A program made the position numbers and the translations under genes. From a virus, in IMG/VR virus record IMGVR_UViG_3300028384_000336, positions 1 to 31,361 of that record: a stretch of 31,361 nt of DNA, one strand, 5' to 3'. Shown piece by piece: positions 1,024 through 31,361 of this stretch; the stretch's first letter is position 1, and the number at the start of each line of letters is the position of its first letter. The notes under the pieces were generated by a model, which saw nothing but the letters and a program-made list of their open reading frames with translations, did not search any database and was not told the origin of the DNA.

Positions 1024-1024
1024 A

Positions 1025-3040: not shown

Positions 3041-3065
3041 AAGATTCTCCAAGTATAATACTAGT

Positions 3066-3094: not shown

Positions 3095-3097
3095 GTA

Positions 3098-4195: not shown

Positions 4196-4198
4196 ATT

Positions 4199-5133: not shown

Positions 5134-5141
5134 TATTTATA
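5134..5141 (-). promoter_or_regulatory. T4-type late promoter box TATAAATA
   Basis: The minus strand reads TATAAATA, the exact T4 late promoter consensus recognised by the phage gp55-type sigma factor. It ends 30 bases before the ATG of the 301 aa gene, which leaves room for a short leader with AGGAAG. The box overlaps the TAA stop of the upstream 509 aa gene. No -35 box is expected for this class. Confidence 0.75.
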
Positions 5142-6666: not shown

Positions 6667-6691
6667 TTATAAACCCCTGTTACGACATTAG

Positions 6692-6699
6692 TATTTATC
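6692..6699 (-). promoter_or_regulatory. T4-type late promoter box GATAAATA
   Basis: The minus strand reads GATAAATA in the 38-base gap between two fibre genes, 26 bases before the ATG of the 509 aa protein. It fits the NATAAATA form of late promoters in marine T4-like phages. The spacing to the start codon is like that of the other late boxes here, which supports function. Confidence 0.65.
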
Positions 6700-6704
6700 T
6701 GCTT

Positions 6705-8609: not shown

Positions 8610-8611
8610 TC

Positions 8612-11341: not shown

Positions 11342-11349
11342 TATTTATC
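11342..11349 (-). promoter_or_regulatory. T4-type late promoter box GATAAATA
   Basis: The minus strand reads GATAAATA, overlapping the TAA stop of the giant gene and lying 19 bases before the ATG of the 204 aa protein. It would let the fibre genes be transcribed independently of the 14 kb gene ahead of them, which makes sense for stoichiometry. Confidence 0.65.
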
Positions 11350-14300
11350 GCGGTAGATCAATACTCTTTCCACGCAAGAAAGTTGCTACTTCTGTACCAG
11401 ATATTCCTAGCGGTTTTGCCTCTCCTGTAGACGGATCTACTATTTCGTTCCAAATTTCTCCACGCTTTCTTACTATAGTTAGTTTTGTATTTGGTTCAGG
11501 TGGTGTAGTTAGACGCACATATGCTCCTACGTTTTTATTAACAGCATATTCTGCTTCTAGCCAAATGTCGCCTGCTGGACTAAATTGTCCTTTAGTTACA
11601 TCATATGTATTTAAAGGATTTTTTCTTAGTCGCTTACCGTTTGCAAAAATTTCAATATCTTGTGCTTCCCAATATTCTTCTGGTATACCGCCTTCTTCAT
11701 AAGGTGCTTTATACCATCCAGTTTCGGTATCTGGATTCCAGATGTTTGCACTAATTGGGTTAGGTTGAGGTGCAAACGGTAATAATACCTGTACATATTC
11801 TAATGCTTTCGATATAACAAGACTTGTTGCTGGTCTTAGAATCGGTACAGTTTCAGTATCATTATAAATTACAAGATCGTAAGCACCAACTGGCATTGCT
11901 GCTGTTATAAATGTAAATTGATTTTCATTTACATATGTTGTAGATAACTCTTGTATATCTCCGTTTTCGTTTTGCATTAATGCTTTAACTGTTGGTCTAA
12001 AGCCGCTACCGTTAACTGTAGCAACTTGTCCACCTAAAGGAAATACTGTATTATTGTTAAAATTATAAGCAATACCGTCAAACGTTATAGACGGATCAGG
12101 ATCATATACTTCTGTTAATGGATTCGAGTCGTACTTTGAACGTAAGTCAACATAGTTTCCAGAAAATACAACAACGTTTTCTTCAATGTCTTTATACGGT
12201 AGTGTTGTTTCGATACTTTGATTTACTAGTATTGACCCTGCTTCGTGTACTTCAGGAATACTTGTACCGCCTGTTCCTCTACGCAGTTGTTTTAGTACAT
12301 TGCCTTCTTTACGCAAATACTCAATACGTTCTTTATTCATAAACACAATTCCTGGACGATCACTCGAAGGTTCAGGTAAATTTCCGTTTTCTTTTTCTGC
12401 TAATGTAATAGTTCTATCGTACCAGTTTAGAGGTTGTTCTAATTCATAGTATCCATCTCTATCAAGACGTTTGTATATATTTCTATTTAAAATATCTTTA
12501 AATTGTCTCCAACCAAATTTAATACTTACTGGTGGATTTGAGAAATGCATAACATCAATTACATCGTTTTCATAAAGTGGTGCAGTAAATTTAATAGTTT
12601 TCTTATTTTCTAATAAGATATAATCAGCTGTAGGTGTAAGCCATCTTCCGTTTAGGCTAACCCAAACATAATCTACGCTCAATGCTTCAGATCTTATAGT
12701 AAGCAATCCGTTGGTTAGTAATCTATAATCAGTGTAACCGTCTGATCCTACTGTCATTTCTGTACGCTCAATAACATCGTAGTTCTCTCTATCAATTCCC
12801 TGACTGTCATGATTAGTAAACTGATATACCCTAATTGTAGTATCAGCAGCAGGTGCTTCGTCAAAATGTACTATTGCAGGTGTACTATCTCCGCCAGCAG
12901 TGTCAACCCATTCATTACTATCATCGTAGTATCCAAATCTGTATTCACCTGTTGTGATAATGTGTACTTTTAATTCGTCACCTTCGACTGCAACACCTCT
13001 GTTTAGAATTACTGTACTACCAGGTTGTGCATCTGGGCTTATAGCAGGATTAAACGAACCTGCACCTTCGTATGTCCATTCTTGTAAAAACTCTAGCTTT
13101 CTTCCATTTAGAAATACTTCTATTTCTCTACCTTCTACGGTTCCTACTGGAACTTGCCATACTTTTAATCTAAACTGTGTCTGATTTTCTTCAACTGTAA
13201 ACACTTCGCTATATCCGGCATTTAGGACCTTGTCATCGAGCATTACAATAGTATGATATGCAACAGGATCTTGCTGCAACGGAACCTTATTTAAAGTGTA
13301 AGCAGTTGAACTACCATCTGCTATAATTTCTTCAACAGATACCTTACTAAACGAGTCTACTTCGTTATCAAATATTGCAAATTGAATTAATTTATCTGCA
13401 ATAGGAGATGTAACAAATCTAATAACACATCTTCCTGGAATTGCATAGGATTCATCTGATTCTAGTAGCTCAAATGGTATTTCTTCGCCGTTAACTGTTA
13501 CATACGCATGTACTGTTTCTGTATATGTTACATTGGTTAGATATTCTTGTGTACTTCCGTCTGTGGTAAATTCGTCGTAATCTAAAATATTATTACCGCT
13601 AACGCCCATACTAATTACTACAATCGAATCATTGTTATCTGGTGCATTATAAAAAGTAAGATCACTTGTTTTATAATCAATCTTATAAAGATTAGCATCA
13701 GCTATTGAACCATTAATTTTTACAATAACACTTTCAAAACTATACGGACGTTGTCTAATATTAAATGTACGTGTCTGTCCGTTACCAGTAAACTGTGTAG
13801 TCTGAATTAAACTACTTCCGCCAACAGGTCTTTCATAAACTGTAATATCTAATGTATCTAGTAACTGTCCAGGAATTACTTCTTCGGGACCTTTACCAGT
13901 TGTTTCTGTAACAAATCCGTCACCGTCAATATTAATTTCATCTGAATTAATACCTTTAGCTGTTGTATAAGCTAAATCACCGCCGGAGATATCTGTATCA
14001 TAACTTTCTGAATCAATTAGTCTTGATCCGTCTGAAGTAGATTTAATAATTTTAATAATTTGTGACGGTGGATTATCAGGGCCATTAGTATTGTTTTCTA
14101 AAAATGTTCTATAACCATTTTCGTTATCAATAGTAAGTGTGTCTATAATACCGTCACCAATAAGTGTTTCCATAAATGCATTAGTGTTGTCTACACTTGA
14201 AGTGCCGTCCCATTCTTCGTCGTCAACACGTATATCATTAATATAAACATTATATTTTACACCCTTTTCTAAAGGCTTGGATAAGTTGAATACTAGTGTC

Positions 14301-17300
14301 GATCCGTCTGTTTCAAAAATTTCTTCTTCAAACGTGTCATCGTAAACGTCCCATTGTCCGTCATACCAGTTACCAGTATCCCATCCCGGTGGTGACCCAA
14401 ACTCGAAACTTTTAACTTCTACGCCGCCGTAATCAACACCGTCCATTAACTGACTTACATCTTTACCTATTTGACCGTCTGCTGGATTATAGAATAAATT
14501 AATTCTATCTTGTGCCTGAAGTAAGTTAACAGATTTTTTATAATTAACTTGTATTTCTAAATTATTAGCAGGTGGATCAACAAAATTAATTTTTCCATAA
14601 TATAGCTGAGATTCTGAATTATAAATGTTTTCATAGTCATATTGACTATTTAGAACTAGCTCACCGTTTACTAACACTTCAATAGTATTAGTACGCATGT
14701 CCATTGGCCATTTTAATTGGTACTCAGTTTGTGATCCGTTTGCAGTAAATGTTTCTTGCTCATTCAGTTGAGTAATAAAGAAATTACCAGTTACTCTATC
14801 AAACTTGATAGTGGTATGCATATTTCTTACTTTACTTTCTCCAAGGACTGCTGTAAGTTTTGCCTCACGTCCGCCTTCTGCTATTGTACCATTAATAGTA
14901 ATTTCAGGAGTAATATAGTACCCACTACCCTGATCTTCTACAACAACACTAGATATTTTTCCGCCTGGTCCTAAACTTGCTTTTGCTGTTGCGTTACCTT
15001 CAATAGTTATTACCGGCGCAAAAGTATATCCTTCTCCCGGATCTGAAATTTCTATTTCAGTAACTTTATAAGATGAATTCTCTAACCAGAATCTTTCTGG
15101 ATATGTAGAAAATCTATCCCCACCTTGCCCAGTTAACACACCATTAATAAGTCTAATATTATTAGTTTCAATAGTCTGTGTTACTCTGTCATATGCCGGT
15201 GGTGTATCAAAGTCTGTAACTACGCTAGAACTATTTTCTAAGTTATCATATGTAGAAGTATATTGTCTAATTGACGACTTGTAGGGTTTAACTTCTTGTA
15301 TATAATCTTCATAACTTTCAAGACTGTCATTTTTAAATGTAACTTTTTGTTCTAATGCACCAACATTATGCTGTGCTTTTACAAAACTTGTTTTAAATGC
15401 CCAGTCTACATAACCTTGTTCTGCAAATACGTAACGCAAACTTGCAAAGAATAGTTTGTTGTATTCGTCTGCTAAGTCATTAACAAGAATATCTTCTTTT
15501 AATGCTTGCATAATAATTCTAATTTCTTCAATCGGCTGACTATCAAAGAACTGTGTATCAAATGTTTGTGTATCAAATCCAACTCTGCTATTTTGTACAT
15601 TAAACAAATTTTCTGTAAATTGAATTGTACCGTTTTGTCTGCCTATAGTTTTATAGTTAACTGTATAATCAGTAGTATCCTGATCATCAATCTTCTCAAG
15701 CAATAGCCAACCTTCGCCACCTACATTTAAAATTTTAACAATGTCACCAAATTGATCGTCGATTGTTTGTAGTTCATAACTTTGCGGTATTACATGATCA
15801 ATTTCTGTGAAAGAATTATACCCATCTGCATACCAATCTACATAATTCCAATATTTTGTAACATCATATGCTTGGCTATTAATTCTTAGCCAATCGCCAG
15901 TTACTGGATTTCTATTATATAGAGCCCACTTACCTCTAATTTGACTGTCCGCTGTAACTAGTGCAGCAAATGGTCGAATTATTATAGAAGTATTTTCACT
16001 ATAGTTATTACCACTTTCAATAATTTCAGCAGTATCTAATCGTCCTTGACTATCTATAGTAAATTCAATTTCTGCACCATATCCTGTACCTTCAATAGTG
16101 TACGAAGGCGGAACTCTATATCCGCGACCTTTGTCATTAATAGTAAGTCGTATAATCTTACCGTTTTCTATGATCGGTGTTATTGTTGCTGTAGTAGCTT
16201 TTGCTGTACCGATAAAGTCTAAATCAATATCTGTATCTACAACAACATCGTACAATCTTGTAGTTTGACTTGGTGCAGGATCTGTGTCCTGTAGTTTAGT
16301 AAGATTTTTTTCTTCTTCAACTAAGTTGTCTATTAAAACAGTGTTTACTCTTTCAATAATTTGTTTTAATGCTTCTGTTCTGTTAATAAACCATCCTTGT
16401 CTCGGCTTATTTAAAATACCATACCTTTCATTAGGAGCAAGATTTGTATCAGGAACAGGTCTCGATTGTGCATCATAACCTACTAAACTATCAATCCATT
16501 TTGTTTCAATTTCTTTGTAAGGTTTACTTGTGCCTAAACCTTCTGTTAAAATTTGATACTGATTATGAATATTGCTTTCTTGATTGCTGTATGTCCAATA
16601 TTGAATACTTAGAACAATATCCAAGTCAGAGACTAATTCCTTACAGTTATGCACCGATAATTCGCCATTACCATAGAAAGATACAAATCTATAACCTGCT
16701 CCGTTTGGATCTTCAATTAGGTTTTTTATAGTTTGTATACTCGAATTTCTATTTTCGACATCCGGAATGTTAGTTTTATCTTTAACCCAGAAGTAATATA
16801 CCTTATCAAAACGCTGTGCAATTTCGTCGTACACTCTTCTTTCTACGTATGCATCGTTACCATACAATGTAGACCCAGTTATTCCTAAGCGTTCGCCTTC
16901 GGGTTGTGAACTTATTCTGTCCCAGTCCTGAGGCAATACTTTACTTTCAACCCATTCGTAAACATCAATACTACCACCCGGAGCAAGTCTATTAACATTA
17001 TTAGTTTTATAGATAATATTACCTTGTTTAATATCATAAAATTTAGCATTTCTAGTATTCCACCAAACTTGTCCAACTTGGGACGGCCCCCAGTTAGATA
17101 ATTCGTTAATCCTAGCAGTTGTACTAGATCCTACGTTATATATTGCAGGATCAAACATTGTTTTATAACGTATTTCTTCATCTGCTGGTCCAGCAATTTT
17201 ACCCTGGTCAACTGCAATATAATCTAAATTTTCAACTACAACATTTTTCTCTTTATCATAAAGCATTACACGTTTAATTTTAGAAACGTCAACCGGTAGT

Positions 17301-20300
17301 TGAGGTTGTCTATGCGCAGACCAAATAGGGGTTGTCTGATCTCTTCTATAGTCTAGCACCAACCCTTGTTTTCCGTCTGCATTATCATATCTCGGTAAGG
17401 ACATGTAAATGTGATTTCCTTTGGCTGTAATGTTTCTACCAAAGAACTTAGCAGATTTATCATTGAAATCTAATGTCTGACCAAATACTAGTGTTTCGTC
17501 AATTCTTTCATAAACATAAACAACACCGTTATTTGCAATTTCGTTTTTAAATGTAGTAAAGCTATTATCAAATGTAGTTCTATCAACAATTTGACTATCA
17601 GTATCAAGAATATATTGCTTACCTGGTGTGTTACTGCCAGGATATAATCTATCTCTAAATCCGTCAAAACGTGTAACATCGTCGCTGCTTGCATTAAATG
17701 CACTAGCAAATAATGTATCCCCGTCAAAGTCTAATTCGCCGCCAAAGTATTCACCTCTTACAGGAGTAGCACTTATTAGTGTTTGTGTTAATTCAAACTG
17801 TCCATTCACTTGTTTATAAATGTAGATCTTTCCAGACTCTTCAACAGTAGTATCTCCGTTTGGTGCACCAATAGCAATTAGTTTTCCATCTTGGCTAATG
17901 CTAATTGATGTGCCAAACTCACTGTCTATAGTAGAACTGTCGCCGCCGGCAACATATTGTGTATCATTTGGAATATATCCAAGAAAGTCGTATGATCTAA
18001 TACTATCACTAGTTGCAATATCCCAATCTAAAATATTAAATTGTGCTGTTGGATCATTAGGATCTTCGGTATTGCCTTGAACATTTGTTTTTGCAAGATA
18101 AAATTCACCATCTAGGAATACAATATCTCCTACATAATAATTTCTCTCAGGAGCAAACTCGCCTTTAAATCTTTTATCCTTTGCAAGTTCCCAATTATAA
18201 TCTATACCCTCTTCATCTGTACCGTTATTAACAAAGTATATTCTTCCAGGATTGTCTGTAGTACCATTGCCGCGACAACTTATAAATGCTTTATATAAGT
18301 CTCCTTGTTTAGACATTTTAATTTTACTACCAATGCCTAGACCATTAATTTCATCAGGAACAATAAATGATCCTACACTAGTAAATGTAGCAATATTTTC
18401 TCTTTGATAAACTGTAAAAAATCCATAGTCGGAAAGATTGTTGCTTATACCATTGCCGTCTGCTGATATGTTAAACACTTCTCTCCAGTCAAAATTAATC
18501 TGATCCGGAATATTTGGAGATGTTGGCAAACCTAATATTTCAAAGTCTTTATAAATTACATATTCAGCATCTATAATAGTGTCATTAGCTGGTACTGTTT
18601 CGATCGGTCCGGCTAATTGGAATACACATAGTTTACCGATTCCAATTTCGTCTTGACCTAAAGAAGTTGCTTTTATATCTCCTAGTGTTCTGGTTACAGA
18701 ATAAATTGTACCAGTATCTGTAGGATCTCCTAAAAATTCAATATCTGCACTTGCACCATAATTAGTACCTAAAGACCAATCGCCTACTTTGTTGCTAACA
18801 AAAATTGTAGCGTTAATACCATTACGCTGATAGAATTCTACTTTTGCAGTTGCACCAGTTACTCTGTCTCTTACAAACTGTCCTACTCTAGGTTCATATG
18901 GTCTACCAAAGTCGTCTGTTTCCTCTAGCTCAAAGTCAATATATCCGTCCCATAGACCAACTAAAGTATGCTTTTTGTTTACTGTAAATTGTGTAAGACC
19001 AGTTGGAGTAATATCAACAAAAGATCCGTCAACAAAACTAGGAAGTCTGTAAACTTCTACACCAATAGTGTCTCCTACTGTAATTCTATCAGTTAAACGT
19101 TTTGGTGCTCTCATTACAAACAAATCACTCAAGATAGGATCTAGTTCTCCGTAAGCACCCGGCGAACCTTGATAAGTTAATGTTCTAATATAAGAGTGTT
19201 GACTATTTTCTCCACTGAATATATCATCATTTTTATAATCAAGTACGTTACCGCCCGCTGCTTGCGGATCTGCTTTACCGCTTGGTATAACATTATAAAC
19301 TGCTAATGCTTTACCTTCGTCTTCAATTGTAGTGCCAACGCTATATTCTTCTGTTGTATTAAACCACCAGTAGCCTCCTAAGTCATCACTCGTATCTACA
19401 TCTTCTTCTACAGGAGCAACTCTTTGGAATTCGCCAACAAACTCGCCTGTTTCTAAAAATAATGATCCAGACACTGGCCATCTACCAACAGACCCTTTAA
19501 CATAGACTGTTGTTCTGCCTTCGTCAGTGTATGTATATGCCACATAACCACTAGCACCAGTAGTATCAACTTGTAAGTCATCTCCTGGAATTGTGCTAAC
19601 ACTATTAACATATAACACTACATCAATTTTGTCAACAATAGTTAATCCGCTTTCGAGATATTCTTCGTTAATTATGTCATATGCTCCGTTAAACGGTTGC
19701 CTAGGTGTAGTCGGTGCTGCTTGGTTTGCACTAGTTGTTAAATACCAATCTAAAAATACAGTATCTCCTGGACCTGTTGCAGTATATGCATCAGCTGGCG
19801 CTCTTACAAGAATATGATCTGTATTGTCGTCTTGATCTACAAACGGATAGTTACCAACTAATAAACTATTAAACTGTGTTTCGCCTTGTGTAATATTATT
19901 TTTTTGCACTACTTCAATAATAGATCCAAAACTACCAAAAGGTTGACTGTCTCTTGCGCCTTCGATATCAACTAGTGCTTTCCACAAACTATCACTATAC
20001 TTTACAATATCGTCATTTTCGTAATCAGCAGCAGGGTCATAGGTGCCTTTAAATTTAGTTTTTACATTAGATGCATCTGGTGAACCTGCAATAATAAACT
20101 TACCGTCTGAACTTATAGCAATTCCTTCGCCAAAGGAAATTCCACCGTCGGAAATATTATCTTCTGGTTCTATGATTTGTGTAAATTGGAAGTTCTGATT
20201 ATTGCCGCCTCTAGTGTATACAAATACTTTACCATTACCGTCAGCAGTAGGCGACGACAATGCCATTGTAACATTTCTACTATCAATTGCAAGTGCTTGC

Positions 20301-23300
20301 CCAAAGTTATTGTTTACGCCAGTTTCTTCTGCAGGGATTTTTTGTAATAGTCCATAAGACTGTGAATTTTTTAAAACTTTCCAAAACCCGTTTTCATCTT
20401 CGTCTACCCAAATTAAAGTATTTTTATCAATACCTTGTTGTGCTAATTGGTTAGCTTTTTTATAATCTCCAACTCTAACAGAAATAAACTTAGTTAGTGA
20501 ACCATCACATGAAGGGATATCTTCAATAATTTCTGTTGTTTCAATAATAATTTTGTTTAATTTTACATCAATAACCTTATAGAAACCTTCTACAGGTTCT
20601 GTACTTTGTATTGAAATAGGATATGTACTATCAGGTGTACTTCTATCAGTTACGATTAAATCATATAATCCAATAACATCTCCAACATTAATATCGTCTG
20701 GGGCATTACTTAGAGTTATAGTAAACTGATTCTTATCTTCAGCACCAATACTAATAGCAGTTGCGTTACCTTCAACTGATAATACAGACCACTTAGTGCG
20801 CTTATGTTGAAATACATTCCAGGACTGTTTTTGTGTACTGACCCAAACATACCCTTTATGTTTTATGTCGGTAAATTTTTGATCTAAAATATCATAATAA
20901 TCGCCTAGTACTACAGAAACATCATCAATATGTACATACCCTGCCGTTTTAGTGAACTCAGGTAATAATTCAGTTTTTGGTAAATTATCTGGAGTATAAG
21001 TTTTAGGCTTTTTATATAATTCAAAGTCTTTGATTCTGTATACTAAATCAGTACTTGTGCTATCTTGATTTGTTAACAATATAGGCTGTGGCTCAGCTCT
21101 ATATTTTTTCTCGTCTAGAACTAGTTCAACTTGATCAAATCCTTCTGATGCACCATACTGTCCTTGCTTGATTGCCCATTCTTCATAAAAGTCTAAACTT
21201 TCTTTATCAGCACTACTTAGAACATCGAATAATTTGTCTAAACTGTTTCTAGTTCCTTTATCTTGAATCATGCCTTGATAAAATTTGTATTGGCTTACTT
21301 CGTCATTAATAATGTTTTCTAAGTATTGACGCTTTTGATAGCCGATTAGATGTTGCGCAATTTCTTGTTGTGCAACGTCAAAGTTATCTGTGTCAAGGCT
21401 ATAAAAATCTGCAAACTGATTTGTCTTATATTCGAAATTAGTTGTCATAGAAGACTCTGGTTTTTCAGATAATCTAGTCCAATCCTCCTCGTTAAATAAT
21501 TCAGTACCTTTGAGCTGACCTTTAGAACTATAATAGAACTCTTTATTTTTTACAAGTGCTCCGGTGTCATAATCAGTCCACTGTTGCCACTCAGTAATTT
21601 TAGCTTCGTTATATATGAAGCCCGGAATATTTAAACTGCCGTCCCAGTTATCTGTTCTGTATCCTAGTACTTTAATGCGCTCTTGTCTATATCCAGTTGA
21701 CGGTTGATAAATTACATCGCCAAATACACTAAAATTGTCAATTAAAACTATGTGCTCTTTTTGTACAACAGGAAGTTTAACAGCATATACACCGTCTTGC
21801 GTATTCTTAGGTTGTACTTGAAGTTTGTTAGGATTAGATCTATTAATTCTAGTAAACTCGTCTGTAAGTTTTGTACCGTCTGATTTTAATAAACTATATC
21901 CGTAAAAATTATCTAGTATATTATCTACAACAGCATATTCTGTTTCAAAGTTAATTTCGTCAGCAACTGGGCTCATTGCAATAAGTGCTCCGGCACTCCA
22001 GTTTTGTGTAGTCCAGAATAAGAATTCTCTACAACTATTATTCCAATCAGATATTACTTGTGCTTCGCCATCAAAATATTCAAATCTAAAACCTTCAGAT
22101 TCTAAGTAACTTTGATATCCTAGAAGGAAATCTATTACATCTTGGATAGTTGTAAGCACTGTTCCGTATGGTAAAAGTTTTACATTACTAGTATCAAACG
22201 TTTTTCTAAAATAAGCATCTGAGCCGCCACTAGTCGGAAGTTTAGGAATTTTTGTATACTTTGAAGAATCAAAGTTTGCTGCCGATGTGTGAGTTTCAAT
22301 TACTTTATAAAATGCTCCTTGATATTGTACATTTTTACCTTCAATATATGTTTGTAAAGGTTCCCATTCTGTAAATGGTTCACTAACACCTCCAACATTT
22401 ACAAATACATCAGAGCCTGTCGGAAGTGCTCTATGATATTTAAATGCCGGAGTTTCTGTATTATAACCTCTAATTACAAAACCACTAGTTTCTTTTTGTA
22501 CAATTACACCACTATAATTAACTAATTTAATTGCAGAACTAGTGTTTAAAATAATATTATAGTTTTCTTCTGGTATAAAGACATTACCCTTGTTTAAAGG
22601 TGTTCTACTATCTAAGATTAATTTAAACTTTGATTTATCTGTAAATCCACCTACTCTAAATGCAAGAACATTTTGTAAACTTTTTAGCCTAGTGTTATAT
22701 TCTTTAAACGACGATGTTATATTACTTGACATATAATTAGAAATATAATTTACTAAACCACTAGTTAATACTTCTTTACTGTCGCTGTGAGTGTTTGGAA
22801 AAACTAAATCTTTTAAAGTTATATGATCGCCTGTTTCGGTATATATTAGTTGTCCTAATAAATTTTTTACCTGTCTTGATCTGTCAAAACCTGTTGACAT
22901 AAGCGAAGGCATATTATTAATTGCCCAACTAGTAATAATAGCAAAAGGATATTCTGAACTTCTTCTCCAAGCACTTTCTACCGGACCATTGTCGCCAAAA
23001 GAGAACGACGAATCAATTCCGGTACTATCATAAGTTGTCGGAAGATTGGCATTTGACGGACTTAGTAACTTGCCGTCTGCATCTACCGGAAGGAATTGAG
23101 ACAATCCTGGACGTTCATATTTCTTGTTAATAATAAATGGCTTATTTGGTTCTCTAATAATACCCTTTTCGATATCTTCCCAAAGTAATCTGTTTTCAGA
23201 AGTATACGGTGCAGGCCCGTATTGATCTTCCCACCATGTAGGTTTTATTGTATACCCTAACATTTCCCACGGGTGTGTATGCGGACGATCTGTATCGTAT

Positions 23301-25522
23301 ATCTTATTATACGCACCTCGCCACCAACCGGGTAAAGATTCTCCGTCAGGACCTTTCATATTTTTATAGTTGAAACTAAATGAATCTAGTCTACTAAAAT
23401 ATTTGTGCTCAGTATAATCTTCGTCGACTAAAGTCAACCACTGAACAAAATCGGTAATCATTGGAGAATAAATGTCTTCTCTACTAAAACCTGTATCTCT
23501 AAATGTTCCGCTAATATATGTATTAATATCGTGGCATGTAGGATCATACGGTACTTTAATATTATTAAATATTCTACGTTCTAATTCTATAATTAAATTA
23601 TCTCTAAAATCTTGATACGCTCTAATTACGCTCCCATCATGACCTTGTATCATTAAAGGTGAATTAGGATATGTATCGTCGTTATAGATAGTTGGCTCGT
23701 ATAAAGGATATAACCCTAACTTAGTTGGTGTAGCAGGAATGTATGATCCGTTTGTTGTTTCGTATTCGTTGATTTCAATAACATCACCGAATTGTTTTTC
23801 AACAGTGATATTTAGATAACCTTCCGAATTAAAAGTATAATCTTTTTTATGAACTAGCTGTTCTTCATTTAAATAAACTGTTACTGCTCTAGTACTAATA
23901 TCGTCAAGTGTAAAAATATTATTGAGTGCAAAAAATTCTGCTTGAGCATCTTCTACAGTAATTCTAGTAGTAACACTTGGTCCGTGTGCAATCATATCAC
24001 TAAAGTAAAACGGCATTGTATTTGTTTTATCTTTATTAATTGCATTTAGAATAACATCAACATGTTGTTTAACTGGACCTTCAAAGCCTATTGTTTCAGC
24101 TGTTTCTAAAAATAGTCTTTTAAACTTACTATATTCTTTTCTTGCAAATCGTAAAGAATTAACTAAGTTACTTTCTCTGTCTAGTAAACTAAACATTGAT
24201 AAGTTTAATGGCGAACTATTCTTGATAAACTTACGTCCGTATTTGCTTTGATTATTAATATCTCTTAGATTGCTCGGCCCTGGAAATATACCATCAAAAC
24301 CTGGAATATTTTCTGTGATAGTTGACACATGCTCTGTAACTTCACCTAAAGTAAATGTTTCAATATTTTCATTTAGAGGGTTGCGCTCTAGGTTATGTGC
24401 AATTTCGTAATGCCCGTTATTATTTTTAGGTGTACTAGTATAACTTTTAATAATAATATTTGCATCAACATCAATATCAGTTATAAAGTTTATTGCTTTA
24501 AATTTGTCAGCTGTTGAAATAATTTCGTAATCATTTCCTTCATACATTGTTTTGTTATTAACTTTTATAATTAGTTCAAGATCATCAATAAACGCAGATC
24601 TGTCATAACAGTTAATCGGATAGTTAGTTCTTGTACCATCATTTACATAACGTAAGATAACTGCTTGCTTAGAAAACTCGTTAGATTTCTCATAACGTCC
24701 TGCCGATTTAAACTGATTTCTGTTATTAAATTTTCTTAGATATCCTTGTCTAGCACTAATTTCATATGTAATATCATTTACTTGATATTCATATAGGTCT
24801 TTGTTATAATCAAAGTTAAAAAGAATATCGCCAACATTATCAATACTTCTGTATGCTAGTGGAAATCCTAATACAGGGTCATTTTCACCTTGTCCTTGTT
24901 GATAACTAAAAAGTTTAGTACCCCTAAAGTTATTTGCAGGATAATATACTTCGTCTGAAAAACTGTTTCCACTAACATCAAACAAATCAAATAATGGCGC
25001 TTGATTTACTGAGGTTTTTTCTTGTGCTCTATTCCAATTATTACCATCATAGTACCATATCGATCCAGCATAATCGTCGCCTTTAGTAACTAAAACGTTT
25101 TCATTTGGCCCGGATTCAGTATCGTCTGTTGGTACTAAAGTAATTTGACCCTGAACTCCCGAACCTTTAAATTGTATAAATCTTACTTCAAATACTTTTC
25201 CTTGTACTAACGGGTCTGTGTCTGCAAGGAAAATAATACGCATGCCTTCAGATAATTGTACACTATCAACATTGTAGCCCAAACTACCTTCAATTGTACT
25301 AAAAGCATCAGTTGTATAGTCGTCTATAAGATCGATTGCTTGTTTGGATTTTGTACCAAAGTTATAAAGTTTTATTCCTGCTTCAAATTCAATAATAGGT
25401 CTGTTTGCACGTTGTGCTTGATCTATTAAACTTTCACTTTTTGTAATACTCGATGCTAGATCAATTACATCTTTATGGAACCATCTATTGTATCTTCGTC
25501 TCCGACCCCTTCGATATACCAT
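11345..25522 (-). CDS. Giant multidomain baseplate/tail protein (4725 aa), main part
   Basis: The gene follows gp6 and a 340 aa segment, where T4 has wedge gene 7. From NRWFHKDVI onward the N-terminal region matches my memory of giant structural proteins of marine T4-like phages, including PHTHPWEM (747-754). Visible parts: FG-GAP-like propeller blades with FG at 1740, 1797, 2536, 2593 and 2694; four CBM5/12-like segments near 1053, 1312, 1825 and 2453; Gly-Tyr repeats near 3132 and 3496; about seven DGST-type beta repeats (3592-4330); an RRGTGG motif (4414-4419); an IPT/TIG-like domain (4466-4560); and an FLRGKSIDLPR end. No catalytic motif was found. The ATG at 25522 has no Shine-Dalgarno, and the first 15 residues (VYRRGRRRR) look like an out-of-frame reading. 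The true start is doubtful, and the protein is probably continuous with the 340 aa gene. Role inferred: baseplate periphery or host adhesion. Confidence 0.85.
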   Translation of the reverse strand: MVYRRGRRRRYNRWFHKDVIDLASSITKSESLIDQAQRANRPIIEFEAGIKLYNFGTKSKQAIDLIDDYTTDAFSTIEGSLGYNVDSVQLSEGMRIIFLADTDPLVQGKVFEVRFIQFKGSGVQGQITLVPTDDTESGPNENVLVTKGDDYAGSIWYYDGNNWNRAQEKTSVNQAPLFDLFDVSGNSFSDEVYYPANNFRGTKLFSYQQGQGENDPVLGFPLAYRSIDNVGDILFNFDYNKDLYEYQVNDITYEISARQGYLRKFNNRNQFKSAGRYEKSNEFSKQAVILRYVNDGTRTNYPINCYDRSAFIDDLELIIKVNNKTMYEGNDYEIISTADKFKAINFITDIDVDANIIIKSYTSTPKNNNGHYEIAHNLERNPLNENIETFTLGEVTEHVSTITENIPGFDGIFPGPSNLRDINNQSKYGRKFIKNSSPLNLSMFSLLDRESNLVNSLRFARKEYSKFKRLFLETAETIGFEGPVKQHVDVILNAINKDKTNTMPFYFSDMIAHGPSVTTRITVEDAQAEFFALNNIFTLDDISTRAVTVYLNEEQLVHKKDYTFNSEGYLNITVEKQFGDVIEINEYETTNGSYIPATPTKLGLYPLYEPTIYNDDTYPNSPLMIQGHDGSVIRAYQDFRDNLIIELERRIFNNIKVPYDPTCHDINTYISGTFRDTGFSREDIYSPMITDFVQWLTLVDEDYTEHKYFSRLDSFSFNYKNMKGPDGESLPGWWRGAYNKIYDTDRPHTHPWEMLGYTIKPTWWEDQYGPAPYTSENRLLWEDIEKGIIREPNKPFIINKKYERPGLSQFLPVDADGKLLSPSNANLPTTYDSTGIDSSFSFGDNGPVESAWRRSSEYPFAIITSWAINNMPSLMSTGFDRSRQVKNLLGQLIYTETGDHITLKDLVFPNTHSDSKEVLTSGLVNYISNYMSSNITSSFKEYNTRLKSLQNVLAFRVGGFTDKSKFKLILDSRTPLNKGNVFIPEENYNIILNTSSAIKLVNYSGVIVQKETSGFVIRGYNTETPAFKYHRALPTGSDVFVNVGGVSEPFTEWEPLQTYIEGKNVQYQGAFYKVIETHTSAANFDSSKYTKIPKLPTSGGSDAYFRKTFDTSNVKLLPYGTVLTTIQDVIDFLLGYQSYLESEGFRFEYFDGEAQVISDWNNSCREFLFWTTQNWSAGALIAMSPVADEINFETEYAVVDNILDNFYGYSLLKSDGTKLTDEFTRINRSNPNKLQVQPKNTQDGVYAVKLPVVQKEHIVLIDNFSVFGDVIYQPSTGYRQERIKVLGYRTDNWDGSLNIPGFIYNEAKITEWQQWTDYDTGALVKNKEFYYSSKGQLKGTELFNEEDWTRLSEKPESSMTTNFEYKTNQFADFYSLDTDNFDVAQQEIAQHLIGYQKRQYLENIINDEVSQYKFYQGMIQDKGTRNSLDKLFDVLSSADKESLDFYEEWAIKQGQYGASEGFDQVELVLDEKKYRAEPQPILLTNQDSTSTDLVYRIKDFELYKKPKTYTPDNLPKTELLPEFTKTAGYVHIDDVSVVLGDYYDILDQKFTDIKHKGYVWVSTQKQSWNVFQHKRTKWSVLSVEGNATAISIGAEDKNQFTITLSNAPDDINVGDVIGLYDLIVTDRSTPDSTYPISIQSTEPVEGFYKVIDVKLNKIIIETTEIIEDIPSCDGSLTKFISVRVGDYKKANQLAQQGIDKNTLIWVDEDENGFWKVLKNSQSYGLLQKIPAEETGVNNNFGQALAIDSRNVTMALSSPTADGNGKVFVYTRGGNNQNFQFTQIIEPEDNISDGGISFGEGIAISSDGKFIIAGSPDASNVKTKFKGTYDPAADYENDDIVKYSDSLWKALVDIEGARDSQPFGSFGSIIEVVQKNNITQGETQFNSLLVGNYPFVDQDDNTDHILVRAPADAYTATGPGDTVFLDWYLTTSANQAAPTTPRQPFNGAYDIINEEYLESGLTIVDKIDVVLYVNSVSTIPGDDLQVDTTGASGYVAYTYTDEGRTTVYVKGSVGRWPVSGSLFLETGEFVGEFQRVAPVEEDVDTSDDLGGYWWFNTTEEYSVGTTIEDEGKALAVYNVIPSGKADPQAAGGNVLDYKNDDIFSGENSQHSYIRTLTYQGSPGAYGELDPILSDLFVMRAPKRLTDRITVGDTIGVEVYRLPSFVDGSFVDITPTGLTQFTVNKKHTLVGLWDGYIDFELEETDDFGRPYEPRVGQFVRDRVTGATAKVEFYQRNGINATIFVSNKVGDWSLGTNYGASADIEFLGDPTDTGTIYSVTRTLGDIKATSLGQDEIGIGKLCVFQLAGPIETVPANDTIIDAEYVIYKDFEILGLPTSPNIPDQINFDWREVFNISADGNGISNNLSDYGFFTVYQRENIATFTSVGSFIVPDEINGLGIGSKIKMSKQGDLYKAFISCRGNGTTDNPGRIYFVNNGTDEEGIDYNWELAKDKRFKGEFAPERNYYVGDIVFLDGEFYLAKTNVQGNTEDPNDPTAQFNILDWDIATSDSIRSYDFLGYIPNDTQYVAGGDSSTIDSEFGTSISISQDGKLIAIGAPNGDTTVEESGKIYIYKQVNGQFELTQTLISATPVRGEYFGGELDFDGDTLFASAFNASSDDVTRFDGFRDRLYPGSNTPGKQYILDTDSQIVDRTTFDNSFTTFKNEIANNGVVYVYERIDETLVFGQTLDFNDKSAKFFGRNITAKGNHIYMSLPRYDNADGKQGLVLDYRRDQTTPIWSAHRQPQLPVDVSKIKRVMLYDKEKNVVVENLDYIAVDQGKIAGPADEEIRYKTMFDPAIYNVGSSTTARINELSNWGPSQVGQVWWNTRNAKFYDIKQGNIIYKTNNVNRLAPGGSIDVYEWVESKVLPQDWDRISSQPEGERLGITGSTLYGNDAYVERRVYDEIAQRFDKVYYFWVKDKTNIPDVENRNSSIQTIKNLIEDPNGAGYRFVSFYGNGELSVHNCKELVSDLDIVLSIQYWTYSNQESNIHNQYQILTEGLGTSKPYKEIETKWIDSLVGYDAQSRPVPDTNLAPNERYGILNKPRQGWFINRTEALKQIIERVNTVLIDNLVEEEKNLTKLQDTDPAPSQTTRLYDVVVDTDIDLDFIGTAKATTATITPIIENGKIIRLTINDKGRGYRVPPSYTIEGTGYGAEIEFTIDSQGRLDTAEIIESGNNYSENTSIIIRPFAALVTADSQIRGKWALYNRNPVTGDWLRINSQAYDVTKYWNYVDWYADGYNSFTEIDHVIPQSYELQTIDDQFGDIVKILNVGGEGWLLLEKIDDQDTTDYTVNYKTIGRQNGTIQFTENLFNVQNSRVGFDTQTFDTQFFDSQPIEEIRIIMQALKEDILVNDLADEYNKLFFASLRYVFAEQGYVDWAFKTSFVKAQHNVGALEQKVTFKNDSLESYEDYIQEVKPYKSSIRQYTSTYDNLENSSSVVTDFDTPPAYDRVTQTIETNNIRLINGVLTGQGGDRFSTYPERFWLENSSYKVTEIEISDPGEGYTFAPVITIEGNATAKASLGPGGKISSVVVEDQGSGYYITPEITINGTIAEGGREAKLTAVLGESKVRNMHTTIKFDRVTGNFFITQLNEQETFTANGSQTEYQLKWPMDMRTNTIEVLVNGELVLNSQYDYENIYNSESQLYYGKINFVDPPANNLEIQVNYKKSVNLLQAQDRINLFYNPADGQIGKDVSQLMDGVDYGGVEVKSFEFGSPPGWDTGNWYDGQWDVYDDTFEEEIFETDGSTLVFNLSKPLEKGVKYNVYINDIRVDDEEWDGTSSVDNTNAFMETLIGDGIIDTLTIDNENGYRTFLENNTNGPDNPPSQIIKIIKSTSDGSRLIDSESYDTDISGGDLAYTTAKGINSDEINIDGDGFVTETTGKGPEEVIPGQLLDTLDITVYERPVGGSSLIQTTQFTGNGQTRTFNIRQRPYSFESVIVKINGSIADANLYKIDYKTSDLTFYNAPDNNDSIVVISMGVSGNNILDYDEFTTDGSTQEYLTNVTYTETVHAYVTVNGEEIPFELLESDESYAIPGRCVIRFVTSPIADKLIQFAIFDNEVDSFSKVSVEEIIADGSSTAYTLNKVPLQQDPVAYHTIVMLDDKVLNAGYSEVFTVEENQTQFRLKVWQVPVGTVEGREIEVFLNGRKLEFLQEWTYEGAGSFNPAISPDAQPGSTVILNRGVAVEGDELKVHIITTGEYRFGYYDDSNEWVDTAGGDSTPAIVHFDEAPAADTTIRVYQFTNHDSQGIDRENYDVIERTEMTVGSDGYTDYRLLTNGLLTIRSEALSVDYVWVSLNGRWLTPTADYILLENKKTIKFTAPLYENDVIDVMHFSNPPVSIKFGWRQFKDILNRNIYKRLDRDGYYELEQPLNWYDRTITLAEKENGNLPEPSSDRPGIVFMNKERIEYLRKEGNVLKQLRRGTGGTSIPEVHEAGSILVNQSIETTLPYKDIEENVVVFSGNYVDLRSKYDSNPLTEVYDPDPSITFDGIAYNFNNNTVFPLGGQVATVNGSGFRPTVKALMQNENGDIQELSTTYVNENQFTFITAAMPVGAYDLVIYNDTETVPILRPATSLVISKALEYVQVLLPFAPQPNPISANIWNPDTETGWYKAPYEEGGIPEEYWEAQDIEIFANGKRLRKNPLNTYDVTKGQFSPAGDIWLEAEYAVNKNVGAYVRLTTPPEPNTKLTIVRKRGEIWNEIVDPSTGEAKPLGISGTEVATFLRGKSIDLPR

Positions 25523-26487
25523 TCTGAATTTTGATATTTTTCTGGCTGAACTTCGCCTTCAAATCTTACTTTTAATCCGTTAGATAACTGCCATCCATTT
25601 CTAGTAGTATATTGTTTTTTACCAACAAGCTCTGCATCTACGTCAATAAATGTTGCTTCTGAAGCATTACCAACTTTAATTACGCCGCCGACGTTAATAT
25701 CATTTTCTGCAACATAAAAAATTTCATTAGGAGTATCAGGACCTAATGTTAATTCAATAATTCCTTGCTCAACAGATTGCGCACTAATACCGTCAACGAT
25801 CAAAAATTCTTCGTCTAAAGTTCTTGCTGTTTTAAATGTAAGAGGTAATCCAGGAGTGTTAACTTCAAAAACATATTTTACGCCTCTATATAATTTTAGA
25901 CTAGGATTATTTGTTAATCCATCTGGAGTAAACAAATAGGAAAAATCACCAAGTGCTTCTTGAAGTTCTACTGTGTAAGTTGATGTAATTTCTTTTTCTT
26001 CGCCAGGAATAACAACTGTTTGTGGCCCATTTGGTAACCAATAATACTCGCGAAAGTTTGTAAATTTGTCCCAGTCAATATGCGGATTCCATGTGTAAAA
26101 CTCTTGCTTATTGTTTCGACTATGACTATTATTTTTTCCGCTAAAGTTAGCAATTTGATTCATGTAATCACGATAGTCTGCATAAAAGTCTACATTACCT
26201 AATGAATCTTTAATAACACTTACAGGTTCTAATTGATAGTTTTCTCTGTCTAACGAAACTTCTTCTAAGTAACTATCCTTAGTATTATATGCTTTAGCTG
26301 TGCGTCTTCCAACAAACCCGTTAACCTTTTCTGCTACACCTGGTTGAATTAACTGATCTAATGTAGACTGTAAAAATTTCTTATTTTTATCAGTTCTAAA
26401 ATATTTTGGAAGATGATAAGAACTTGTTCTTTTTTGATTTCCGCCAGTTGGAACTGGAAATTCATTCTGATCGTTATCTTGAGCCAT
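25465..26487 (-). CDS. N-terminal segment of the giant baseplate/tail protein (340 aa)
   Basis: The segment contains YHLPKYFRTDKNKKFLQSTL (24-43), IQPGVAEKVNGFVGRR (47-62), WNPHIDWDKF (133-142) and YYWLPNGP (148-155). I remember these as the N-terminus of very large structural proteins in marine T4-like phages. Residues 195-275 (YRGVKYVFEVNTPGLPLTFKT, then GVIKV) look like a cupredoxin-type beta domain. The end, EWYIEGVGDEDTIDG, breaks off at a TAA in the middle of what looks like a conserved region. The next gene begins 58 bases earlier in the -1 frame. The start ATG shares one base with the gp6 stop (TAATG), and GGAGG lies 12 bases upstream. I read this as one half of a split or frameshifted gene rather than an independent protein. 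Confidence 0.8.
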   Translation of the reverse strand: MAQDNDQNEFPVPTGGNQKRTSSYHLPKYFRTDKNKKFLQSTLDQLIQPGVAEKVNGFVGRRTAKAYNTKDSYLEEVSLDRENYQLEPVSVIKDSLGNVDFYADYRDYMNQIANFSGKNNSHSRNNKQEFYTWNPHIDWDKFTNFREYYWLPNGPQTVVIPGEEKEITSTYTVELQEALGDFSYLFTPDGLTNNPSLKLYRGVKYVFEVNTPGLPLTFKTARTLDEEFLIVDGISAQSVEQGIIELTLGPDTPNEIFYVAENDINVGGVIKVGNASEATFIDVDAELVGKKQYTTRNGWQLSNGLKVRFEGEVQPEKYQNSEWYIEGVGDEDTIDGSIKM

Positions 26488-29400
26488 TAGTAGCTGTAGC
26501 CTCCGTTATTCGAACTAGTACTTCCTGTAGAAGTTGAAGTAGTGCTTGTAGTGCTTCCTGTAGAAGTTATGCCGTTTGTTATATCCTGTGCATTGCTAGT
26601 AACTGTTGTACTTTGCACACCTACATTAGTTACTGTAGATTTCAAGATAACTTCTCCTTGTGCTTTTAATTTCGATGCTGTCAATGCATCTATAATGTCT
26701 ATTGCATCAACTGTTGCACCACTAATGAAAATTTCATCTGATTCTGATTTAATTTCGTATAGTGATCCAAATGATTGAGATTCTTGTACTGGCACAATTA
26801 CAAATGCTGATATATCAGGCGTAAGCTGTGTCATAACATAATTTGCTAATTCTGAAAAGTAAAATGTTTCGCCAAAGTCCCAATTTTCTAATGCAAAGAA
26901 TTCATTAATTGCACCTATAACTCTAGCTTTAACATCGTTGTCGTTAATTACTTTATCTTTATTTTTTACAATTTTAAACCTTGCTTGCAAATCGTCATTC
27001 GCCTCGCTGCCAAACAGTATCTTATACTTAACCGGATGATAGATAATTTCATCTGTAAGTGATTTAATTTTGTTTAATTCGCTTCCGTATTCGATATATA
27101 GTTGATCACTACTCGGGGGTAATGGTTTATTACCTGCTCTTTGTGTGAGCCACAATCTAAACTCGTTGTCATAATTTCTTGTTAACAGATACATATCAAT
27201 AATATTGCTTACACTTGGATCAATTCTTGATCCATTGCCAGCAGCATGGATGTATCTAAATTTAATATTATCTCTACCTAAGCGAGCTTTGTAATCAGTA
27301 GTTAATGTTAGTTTTAATGTTTCTAAGTTTAATACTTCAAATATGTCTTCATCGATATAATAAAAAATTTGACCATCTTTTTCGTATTCACTAAATGGTC
27401 TAATTTCGCTTTTTGAATTTAAAACAATTACATCTTGATTTTGATTATTAAAATAGTTAAAATCTTCGACGCCGTCTTCTGTAATATATTTTTTAAAGAT
27501 AATATATTTAGATGTAGTATTAACTGTTGGAGATACTATTTCATCAAATAGATCTGCGTCATCAACAATGCCATCTTCGTCGTCATCGTAGTAACTAACT
27601 TCTAGTTTTTTACTATCAACATACCCTTCGCCGTCTTTATATGCGTCAACAATTTCCCATTTGAAATCTTGTGTAAATGGTATAGTGCTTGCAGTAGGAT
27701 CTTTAGGATTAATATTTAAAACTGTAATTGTGTCTTTAATAATTTTGCCAGTTTTGTTATCGTAGATTTTATCGTTTGAATCATAATAAAATCTAACTTC
27801 ATTGTCGCTTTCGTATACATAGCGCATTGATCTATATGTTACAGAAAACGACTCTCCATTATTTTCAAATAACAACAGCCAACTTGCATCTAATTGTTGG
27901 TTCGTAGTATCTCCAGTTTTACCTGTTGAAAACTCTTCTCCAATTGCTAGGTTATTTTCTGTGACCAATTTCCATTGCGAGTCAACTTGATCAAAACGTA
28001 ACCCAAAAACTTTATAAGCAAAAATCTGATCATACAACTGTTGTTTAACACCAGATTCTAAATCGTTTGCTAATGGTGGTTTAACTTCTGCTAGTACTGC
28101 TCCAGTTGGTATTGTTTCATTTACAAGTACTGCTCCTAGACCATCTTCTCTTTCTTCGAAACCTGTTCCATTAATGCCTATAACTTTTACCCATTTATAG
28201 TACGTATCTCCAACAACAGACGTAGGACCATTAACTAAGTTACCATTTTTATCAAAATGATTAGTACTTGTATCTAAATCTGTTGGGTTTTCTTTTTCTA
28301 CAAATCCTGGCGATACAAATTTAATTAGTGTGCCTTCTTTTACTAGTCGTAGAATAGAACTTGTAAATGCACCTAATGTAGACGGAACACCTTCTGAGTT
28401 AGAAAAATATCCGCTTGTAAATTCGGTATCTTTGGTAGTTTGTTGCCATTGAATGTTTAGATCTCTTGTAAGTATTCTAGGAAACTTATCAAAGTAATAA
28501 TTTCTTACTTTGATGTCTTGCAATATAGGAATAATAATATTTTCTACTGCACCTTCAACGTCTGTTCTTGTAGTAAATGAGAACGACCTAATCCTATCTT
28601 GGTATTCTTTATAGATAACACCGTCATTGCCATATAGCGTTGTTTGACTGTATTTTCCAGTTGCATCAATTAAATCAAAATATCTACTAATACCACTGCT
28701 GGTTCTGTTTACTGATTTAGTTTTAACAATTTGTTGGTTAATTGCTAACGGAGCGATTTGATAATCTTCTCCGGTAACCATTCTATTCTGTGTATAATAA
28801 GTCGACGGTGCTTTTGATTTAATGCTTTCAGTAGTTTCACTTACTGAACTGTTGTCAACTGTATATTTTAAACTATAAACTATAGTAATTTTTTCTTCTC
28901 TACCCTTCTTAGATAGATACGGAATGTTTACTGTGATGTTTCTAAAGTCTTTAGGTCTTACAGTTACACGCTGATTTAGCCCTGTTCTAAAGTATACTTT
29001 GAAATTTCCTTTAGGAAGTTCGCCAAATGTACCGTCACTAAAAATTAAACTAATTCTGTCATCGACCCTTGTTAACGCACTGTAAATTTTTCTTTGATCT
29101 TTTTGTACAGAATTATAAATGATATTATTACCTTCCAAGGCATCAACTTTAGTCCATAATTCTCTTTCATTACCGAGTGTATCGAGCTCATATAACCAAA
29201 CGTCGGTATTATTAATGTTTGGTGTCTCAATAGCAACTGTTTGATTAGATGAAGGATTTGTTACTGTAAAAGTTCCTTGATCTAATTCGCCTTGACGGAA
29301 ATGACTAAAAAATCCTGTATTATTGCTCGAAGGTCCTTTACCGTCATCTCTATAAATGAATGCAAAGTTGTTTCCTGGAAACGGTGCTTCTTCTAAGATT

Positions 29401-30065
29401 GTATCTGTAATATCAGTTGAAACTACTTCAAACTTAGTAGCACGGCCGTCAAGTGTTTTGTTAAATCCGTATGCTGGAACGTCAGTATTAATACTATTAA
29501 ATCTATACTGCTCTGTACTTATTCCTGAAATCAGTTCTTTTTTGTTAGGACGACCAAAAGTACCGTTAACTGGTAATGCTGTATTCATTACTTTAATAAA
29601 CTGTTCGTACCAGTTTACGTTAGAAGGGTCATTCCATACAATAGTTTGATTTTGCAGATTAGTTCCGTTGCTATCAATAATTTCTTCAGAAGTTCTTATG
29701 CTATCAATTTTTATTAAACCGTTAGCTGACTGATTACGCTTAGGATTATACGATAGCAAACGTGCTAAACGTAGTACACTTTCTCTACGTTCTGCTAGTT
29801 CTAAATAGTTTTCACGAGCATTTAGATCAATACGGAAACTTATATTTTGTCCAAGGAATGCAATAAGATCTATAAGAGCCAAATATTCACTTGATTCTAC
29901 GTAATCATTAAAATCTTCTGGATAGTTTTGACGAAGATATTGTATCATCGTTCTGCGTAAATTATCAAAGTCATAACTTTGAAAATCTGCATTACGGAAG
30001 GATTGGTATACACGCTTCCAATCTTCAGTCTGTAATAATCTGTTTTGTCTATCTGTAGAGGACAT
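26487..30065 (-). CDS. 6: Baseplate wedge protein gp6
   Basis: A 1192 aa protein, about 1.8 times the length of T4 gp6 (about 660). The N-terminal region is the gp6 signature as I know it from T4-like phages: QNRLLQTEDWKRVYQSF, then FDNLRRTMIQYLRQNYPEDF, ALIDLIAFLGQNISFRID, and NARENYLELAERRESVLRLA. The C-terminal core holds the baseplate-J-like part, with KIKSLTDEIIYHPV, a helical VKARVIGAINEFFALENWDFGE stretch, and FSELANYVMTQLTPD. In the baseplate gp6 dimers join neighbouring wedges with gp25, gp53 and gp7. The extra length is central plus a Ser/Thr/Gly tail (GSTTSTTSTSTGSTSS) that would be flexible. AAGGA stands seven bases before the ATG. Gene order gp25-gp6 agrees with the assignment. 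Confidence 0.92.
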   Translation of the reverse strand: MSSTDRQNRLLQTEDWKRVYQSFRNADFQSYDFDNLRRTMIQYLRQNYPEDFNDYVESSEYLALIDLIAFLGQNISFRIDLNARENYLELAERRESVLRLARLLSYNPKRNQSANGLIKIDSIRTSEEIIDSNGTNLQNQTIVWNDPSNVNWYEQFIKVMNTALPVNGTFGRPNKKELISGISTEQYRFNSINTDVPAYGFNKTLDGRATKFEVVSTDITDTILEEAPFPGNNFAFIYRDDGKGPSSNNTGFFSHFRQGELDQGTFTVTNPSSNQTVAIETPNINNTDVWLYELDTLGNERELWTKVDALEGNNIIYNSVQKDQRKIYSALTRVDDRISLIFSDGTFGELPKGNFKVYFRTGLNQRVTVRPKDFRNITVNIPYLSKKGREEKITIVYSLKYTVDNSSVSETTESIKSKAPSTYYTQNRMVTGEDYQIAPLAINQQIVKTKSVNRTSSGISRYFDLIDATGKYSQTTLYGNDGVIYKEYQDRIRSFSFTTRTDVEGAVENIIIPILQDIKVRNYYFDKFPRILTRDLNIQWQQTTKDTEFTSGYFSNSEGVPSTLGAFTSSILRLVKEGTLIKFVSPGFVEKENPTDLDTSTNHFDKNGNLVNGPTSVVGDTYYKWVKVIGINGTGFEEREDGLGAVLVNETIPTGAVLAEVKPPLANDLESGVKQQLYDQIFAYKVFGLRFDQVDSQWKLVTENNLAIGEEFSTGKTGDTTNQQLDASWLLLFENNGESFSVTYRSMRYVYESDNEVRFYYDSNDKIYDNKTGKIIKDTITVLNINPKDPTASTIPFTQDFKWEIVDAYKDGEGYVDSKKLEVSYYDDDEDGIVDDADLFDEIVSPTVNTTSKYIIFKKYITEDGVEDFNYFNNQNQDVIVLNSKSEIRPFSEYEKDGQIFYYIDEDIFEVLNLETLKLTLTTDYKARLGRDNIKFRYIHAAGNGSRIDPSVSNIIDMYLLTRNYDNEFRLWLTQRAGNKPLPPSSDQLYIEYGSELNKIKSLTDEIIYHPVKYKILFGSEANDDLQARFKIVKNKDKVINDNDVKARVIGAINEFFALENWDFGETFYFSELANYVMTQLTPDISAFVIVPVQESQSFGSLYEIKSESDEIFISGATVDAIDIIDALTASKLKAQGEVILKSTVTNVGVQSTTVTSNAQDITNGITSTGSTTSTTSTSTGSTSSNNGGYSY
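26521..26568. repeat. Short direct repeat in the gp6 3' end
   Basis: A 15-base unit, CTTCCTGTAGAAGTT on the plus strand, occurs at 26521-26535 and again at 26554-26568. On the coding strand it encodes the repeated Ser-Thr-Gly-Ser part of the gp6 low-complexity tail. Each copy also contains a tiny CTTC/GAAG inverted pair. It probably arose by slippage or duplication and could vary in length between strains. Confidence 0.7.
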
Positions 30066-30122: not shown

Positions 30123-30575
30123 TTATTGCTGTAAGAAGCCAGCAGATTCATCGAATTTAAATTGCAGTTTTTCAACAATGCTGTATGGTAGATATGCTAA
30201 CTCGCATTCAACGAGGAGTCCGCTTTCATAAGAATCTACAGTTATTTGATTTACTTGTACTCTAGGATCATAATTAACAATTCTAGTGACGTTTTGTACA
30301 ACTGCATTTTTAACATCATCAGTTAGGGGTTCAAACAGAATGTCCCAGATAATTGTACCAAATTCAGGATCTGATAACTTTTCGCCCTGACGTATATGGA
30401 AATGATTTATAATGTCTTGTTTGATTAGAGCAATATCATATAAAGTATTTGAGTTTAGGTTAGAATTGACTGTACTAAAACCCTTGTATGTAGGGCCTTG
30501 ATCTGCAATTTTATCTGCAATAGTACTAGATTTTACTTTTATTTCTTTGTATAATTTTTTTTCTAAACTGCTCAT
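30123..30575 (-). CDS. 25: Baseplate wedge protein gp25
   Basis: A 150 aa protein, close to the usual length of gp25 (about 130). YKGFST (30-35), IKQDIINHFHIRQGEKL (51-67), DPEFGTIIWDILFEPL (69-84) and a conserved tail-sheath-initiator-like core identify the gp25/W family. These sit in the inner baseplate, contact the first sheath ring and help start sheath assembly. The family is sometimes annotated lysozyme-like from old literature, but no hydrolase active site is visible, and a structural role is what is known. The gene sits between the gp5-like gene (12-base gap) and gp6. A Shine-Dalgarno is present as AAGG at a slightly long distance from the ATG. Confidence 0.93.
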   Translation of the reverse strand: MSSLEKKLYKEIKVKSSTIADKIADQGPTYKGFSTVNSNLNSNTLYDIALIKQDIINHFHIRQGEKLSDPEFGTIIWDILFEPLTDDVKNAVVQNVTRIVNYDPRVQVNQITVDSYESGLLVECELAYLPYSIVEKLQFKFDESAGFLQQ

Positions 30576-30587: not shown

Positions 30588-31361
30588 TTAGGGTTTATTG
30601 AACGTGTCTCGTATTTCAGGAAATGGAGGTTCGGGCAGTTCATCTGTAGTTCCATTTAGTAATAATCCTTGCCTTGCTTCTTCATTTTCTGGATCGTCAT
30701 ACGGTTTTGCTTCTGTTTCTTCAGGCACAAAATTCTTAGGATCAAGATGTTCGTGATCCGGCCAAGGTTCGTGATGCGGAACACGAACTGGAACACTCGC
30801 GACTCCTGCCTCTTCTGCTGGACTATCCGAACTGTTCATGTAAATTTTTCCGTCAGTTGTTTCGTTGTGATTGCCGCCAGCGTATATGTTTGTGTTTCCG
30901 TCGGCTTTTAATTTACCGTCTGCATCTGCTTTGATTTCCCAGTTACCAATTGTATGTACAAAAAAGTTTTCTTCAGTAGTAATGTTCATATTACGTTTTG
31001 CTTCAAAATTAATATCTCTATCAGCATAAAAATTAATATCGTTTTCTGTTCTAAAACTTATACTGTCTTTTGCATAAACATCAATTTTACCATTTCCTGT
31101 CATTTCAATCCAGCTATTGCCGCTACCGTGAGAAATGTAAATCAAATCTTCAGTGTTATGCATTAGAATTTGATGTCCTGACCTAGTTCTAATTCTTACT
31201 AAATCACTGGCAGGGTATTTTTTATTTCCGTCTGTTTCACCATCTTCAAGACTTGCATACTCCATTTTATCAGCATCTCTGCCGCTCGGAGGGTTCTTGC
31301 GAAATAAACTACCGTCACCGTCATCCATTACAAAACTAGATCCGCCTAGTCTATTATAAGG
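30588..31361 (-). CDS. 5: Baseplate hub gp5-like protein, C-terminal needle part (partial)
   Basis: The frame is open from the window edge (31361) through 257 codons to TAA at 30590-30588. The ATG at 31328 is internal, since the residues before it (NRLGGSSFVMDDGDG) continue a motif I know from gp5-type hub proteins of marine T4-like phages. The visible part begins with VRIRTRSGHQILMHNTEDL and WIEMTGNGKIDVYA, then a run of alternating strands (ISFRTENDINFYADRDINF, KRNMNITTE) typical of the trimeric beta-helix that forms the tail spike needle. It ends in an acidic, Pro-rich tail (ETEAKPYDDPENEEARQG). The OB-fold and any lysozyme domain would lie outside the window, so whether this hub carries a lysozyme cannot be judged. 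It precedes gp25 by 12 bases. Confidence 0.85.
   Translation of the reverse strand, partial: PYNRLGGSSFVMDDGDGSLFRKNPPSGRDADKMEYASLEDGETDGNKKYPASDLVRIRTRSGHQILMHNTEDLIYISHGSGNSWIEMTGNGKIDVYAKDSISFRTENDINFYADRDINFEAKRNMNITTEENFFVHTIGNWEIKADADGKLKADGNTNIYAGGNHNETTDGKIYMNSSDSPAEEAGVASVPVRVPHHEPWPDHEHLDPKNFVPEETEAKPYDDPENEEARQGLLLNGTTDELPEPPFPEIRDTFNKP

Follow-up and report, generated by a model that had tools for sequence, protein, structure and literature searches.

Three cultured jumbo phages carry a single coding sequence that covers both pieces of the gene described here, which is broken in the DNA under study. These are ORF070 of the Klebsiella phage RaK2 (9981 nt), YP_010678859.1 of the Pseudomonas phage PA5oct (11574 nt), and AUZ94962.1 of the Agrobacterium phage Atu_ph07 (13350 nt). 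Their N-terminal regions are homologous to that of our sequence, with an overall identity of ~25-30%. In RaK2 and PA5oct, the giant coding sequence follows a baseplate wedge subunit, which is also the gene order found here, and in Atu_ph07, it follows a hypothetical protein of a size like that of the baseplate wedge gene. The record annotates the PA5oct coding sequence with ESI-MS/MS, and on that basis the intact protein counts as part of the virion in that phage. The motif DYxxIxRxxxDGNxWS followed by NxW(F/Y) is kept in all three phages, apart from minor differences (RaK2, for example, has N in place of D). In the alignment, RaK2 is without much of the middle N-terminal domain.

The window, that is, the whole stretch of DNA analysed, is a single contig of 31,361 nucleotides, a 31-kb IMG/VR virus record. 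The upstream neighbour of the giant gene is a baseplate wedge subunit of 1192 aa in the gp6 position (26487..30065, minus strand), which matches phrog_10646 (E 7.9e-300) and phrog_219 (E 4.1e-20). Beyond it, on the same strand, are a gp25-like baseplate wedge subunit of 150 aa (30123..30575; phrog_261, phrog_43) and a gp5-like baseplate hub subunit with tail lysozyme (30588..31361; phrog_13211, phrog_430), cut by the contig end. The giant gene lies directly downstream of the large gp6-position gene, as is expected of the phrog_10938 family. A preliminary description, made from the sequence alone, had called the giant protein a baseplate protein and proposed aligning it with giant structural proteins of marine T4-like phages. 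The label is reasonable by synteny and by the annotation of phrog_10938 as a virion structural protein, whereas the likeness to T4 is confined to the neighbouring baseplate genes.

Three consecutive tail-fibre-like genes of 509, 634, and 697 aa occupy positions 5137-10705 on the minus strand; they share N-terminal matches to the same families, phrog_15511 and phrog_14394, which suggests that the fibres are paralogues with one kind of attachment domain. A Collar domain is present in the 697-aa protein, and the 509-aa protein has a C-terminal Peptidase_G2-like autoproteolytic domain slightly under the Pfam cut-off. Downstream of the fibres, positions 1-5104 (minus strand) are a still uncharacterised section of the tail region with genes of 133-365 aa, most of them without a PHROG match at a threshold of E 0.001; among the six scanned, only that of 272 aa has one.

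At the site of interest, two ORFs are found on the minus strand. The 340-aa ORF (25465..26487) corresponds in its first 330 codons to the N-terminal portion of the giant structural protein of the virion, and its last 10 codons are out-of-frame read-through beyond a deletion. Relative to it, the 4725-aa ORF (11345..25522) is in the -1 frame; the first nine residues of the 4725-aa ORF, MVYRRGRRR, are likewise out-of-frame read-through, and from codon 10 onward its 4716 codons represent the rest of the same protein. The two ORFs overlap by 58 nt (25465..25522, minus strand) as a result of the frame change. The zone open in both frames is larger, comprising 94 nt (25465..25558, minus strand), and nowhere else could a -1 shift fuse the two ORFs. 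A Shine-Dalgarno match of 5 nt precedes the 340-aa ORF (GGAGG) and the gp6-position ORF (AAGGA), and matches of just 3-4 nt are found at several other genes of the window; upstream of the ATG at 25522, none was found. The next usable starts in the frame of the 4725-aa ORF are at 25282 and 25243, ~80-90 codons further in. No X_XXY_YYZ heptamer occurs across the 94-nt zone. The coordinates, lengths, overlap, and relative frame given earlier for the two ORFs are thus reproduced, as are the lack of a Shine-Dalgarno sequence before the downstream ATG and that of a classical slippery heptamer.

Uncultured relatives were collected by scanning viral contigs with each of the two pieces. This returned 160 loci, of which 157 hold both an anchor ending in EGVGD and an anchor starting with RYNRW; they represent 142 distinct contigs and 115 distinct spanning sequences. 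In every one of the 157 loci, the anchors are in one open frame and 180-189 nt apart (60-63 codons; 183 nt in the closest relatives), as opposed to 2 nt in the window. The preliminary description had given YxxEGVG and NRWFH as parts of a single polypeptide in relatives, usually with tens of residues between them, and had proposed a comparison with sister genomes. The comparison bears out both points, all 142 spanning contigs being intact across the site and none having the two-ORF boundary. A search for relatives of the N-terminal piece in contigs of prokaryote genomes returned none.

In nine relatives, the single open frame has 4198-5245 aa, the lower value coming from a 24-kb contig, the smallest of the nine, and the complete genes read in four relatives encode one protein each of 5049-5239 aa. 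Among the closest relatives are IMGVR_UViG_3300000401_000002 (L002/L162; single ORF of 5153 aa), IMGVR_UViG 3300017752_002639 (L011/L163; 5230 aa), and IMGVR_UViG 3300000929_000042 (L003/L164; 5239 aa), each with 183 nt between the anchors vs 2 in the window. They share with the window the gene start region and the gene end, and their protein identity to it is 83-85% in the first 330 residues and 70-83% in the rest. The closest relative compared has ~84% identity, and no near-identical sister genome was among those compared. Downstream of the site, the same gene has no further stop in 213,361 codons (640 kb) of 112 contigs, so the giant gene is seldom broken in this way. Taken with the uninterrupted frame in 142 of 142 contigs, this count places the break in the window, as judged from these sequences, far beyond chance.

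Both pieces can be recognized as parts of one protein. The profile phrog_10938 matches the 340-aa ORF at positions 18-157 (E 1.2e-27) and the giant ORF at positions 558-1257 (E 1.6e-127), that is, in collinear order; one uninterrupted frame is a trait of this family, and the window has two ORFs in different frames. Residues 1-330 of the 340-aa ORF share 84% identity with the N-terminal end of the 5153-aa ORF of L162, with a pN/pS of 0.17. The remaining 4716 codons of the 4725-aa ORF align with residues 392-5153 of the same protein at 83% identity, with a pN/pS of 0.16, only whole-codon gaps, and no further break. On these values, the rest of the gene is under purifying selection and gives no sign of general decay; hence, the break must be very recent, unless the phage does not carry it at all.

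Some observations concern the domains of the two ORFs. Residues ~165-290 of the 340-aa ORF (25600-25990, minus strand) give a weak match to phrog_677, a baseplate wedge tail fibre connector. The fold search with this part retrieved only cupredoxin-type sandwiches of poor superposition (TM-score ~0.15 or less over the query), a hint only; this part resembles a beta-sandwich insertion that RaK2 lacks. Searching PDB sequences with the N-terminal alignment gave no convincing match. The 4725-aa ORF contains CBM_5_12 (a carbohydrate-binding module) and an FG-GAP repeat at residues 1052-1083 and 2535-2569, and its residues ~2525-2699 match the same part of the relatives twice, which suggests a varying repeat number in this portion of the protein.

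The deletion junction lies at 25495..25498 (minus strand) with an ambiguity of 0-3 nt in the exact point, within GGAGACGAAGA, where the break had been placed beforehand. The missing length is 181 nt against each of the relatives L002-L011. In L002, the edges of the deleted segment are GACGAAATACAAC and GGTCAAGATACAATC, and the window reads GACGAAGATACAATAG. With L002 as background, exact microhomology across the crossover amounts to only ~2 nt (AA), inside an imperfect pair of 9-10 nt, GAAATACAA / CAAGATACAA. This similarity is compatible with slippage from one short tract to a similar one, whether in the phage or in vitro, but 2 nt are often expected by chance. Searches of other viral contigs for the junction, with the exact 21-mer and with a degenerate pattern, both returned zero, and a literature search found nothing bearing on it.

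Other origins of the break were considered and rejected. A hairpin-driven deletion is not indicated, as folding of the L002 region with single-stranded DNA parameters gave a stability no greater than that of shuffled sequences (z 0.27). The missing segment has not been relocated within the window, where no copy of it was found. An intron or intein does not apply: the window lacks DNA and has none added, and every relative has the segment as in-frame coding sequence.

In a structural model of the intact relative (mean pLDDT 56.9), residues ~150-340, the only usable part, are predicted with confidence to fold into a beta-domain, and the deleted stretch sets in just ahead of the last strand of this domain. 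Most of the DYxxIxRxxxDGNxWS motif, which every relative examined keeps, is lost from the window with the missing stretch.

The two ORFs are very probably one giant-protein gene broken by a deletion of ~181 nt, a damaged copy and not a regulated or two-gene arrangement. The gene would encode a baseplate-associated virion protein of ~5100 aa, and the ~181 nt would have been lost between codon 330 and would-be codon 392 (L162 numbering). The ancestry as a single ORF, the size and place of the deletion, and the integrity of the remaining gene follow from the comparisons above; the frame breaks because 181 nt do not make up a whole number of codons. Ribosomes entering at the real start would make a truncated product of 340 aa, leaving a 4725-aa remainder without a proper start, and we infer that the broken copy is non-functional. 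The deletion may have arisen in the phage itself, as a defective or very recent variant formed by replication slippage, or during amplification, sequencing, or assembly. The earlier reading of the ORFs as pieces of one polypeptide, separated by a deletion or an error in the sequence and not by programmed frameshifting, agrees with relatives that have one ORF where ~181 nt are missing here.

Programmed -1 ribosomal frameshifting would join the two ORFs into one protein, and they do overlap in the correct relative frame over the 94-nt zone. Neither a slippery heptamer in the zero frame of the overlap nor an overlap or signal conserved in relatives was found: the relatives have a continuous frame in which no shift is needed, a shift would be unable to supply the 60 missing residues, and the region of the relative (the strand folded, with single-stranded DNA parameters, rather than that of the window) has no unusual structure. 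Since there is no heptamer, no shift in the relatives, and absent DNA is not recodable, this mechanism is excluded in practice, its probability being close to nil. A real heritable deletion could alternatively have yielded two functional genes, with the 340-aa and 4725-aa proteins made separately and assembling together. Both ORFs are open and under purifying selection relative to their homologues, and RaK2-type phages show by their reduced middle domain that the region tolerates remodelling. Yet such selection is equally expected with a very recent or artefactual break, the lost stretch holds a motif conserved down to RaK2, and the arrangement is absent from all the other 142 contigs and from the junction searches. 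The second ORF has no ribosome-binding site of its own and no counterpart with the same boundary in relatives of at most ~84% identity, its usable starts being those far inside the frame. This split is highly improbable, and so, to the same degree, is a marine phage lineage with a fixed 181-nt deletion, in which two separately translated subunits would assemble without the conserved linker motif. The suggestion that a deletion had created two genes is thus not upheld. Neither the two-gene nor the frameshift arrangement is a real feature, though the deletion is present in the contig.

Within the favoured explanation of one broken gene, the narrower question is whether the phage in the sample was intact, the 181 nt having been removed by a chimeric read, amplification slippage, or mis-assembly. 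The junction is unique among the viral contigs searched and known from a single contig, the gene is otherwise perfect, and a conserved motif is lost, all of which speak for an artefact. Conversely, the junction has no long exact repeat to confuse an assembler, only the ~2 nt (AA) of exact microhomology, and such breaks are otherwise absent from the giant gene in relatives; assembly seldom breaks this gene at random (0 other stops in 640 kb of 112 relatives), which somewhat favours a real deletion. On its own, a purely technical origin is put barely above an even chance, and between artefact and deletion in the phage, the balance leans slightly to the former.

As a caution for annotation, the 340-aa and 4725-aa ORFs should be treated as one broken gene that is whole in related phages, and neither as two genes nor as a frameshift. 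The comparison also brings out DYxxIxRxxxDGNxWS...NxW as a small motif of this protein common to the uncultured phages and to jumbo phages of the RaK2, PA5oct, and Atu_ph07 types.
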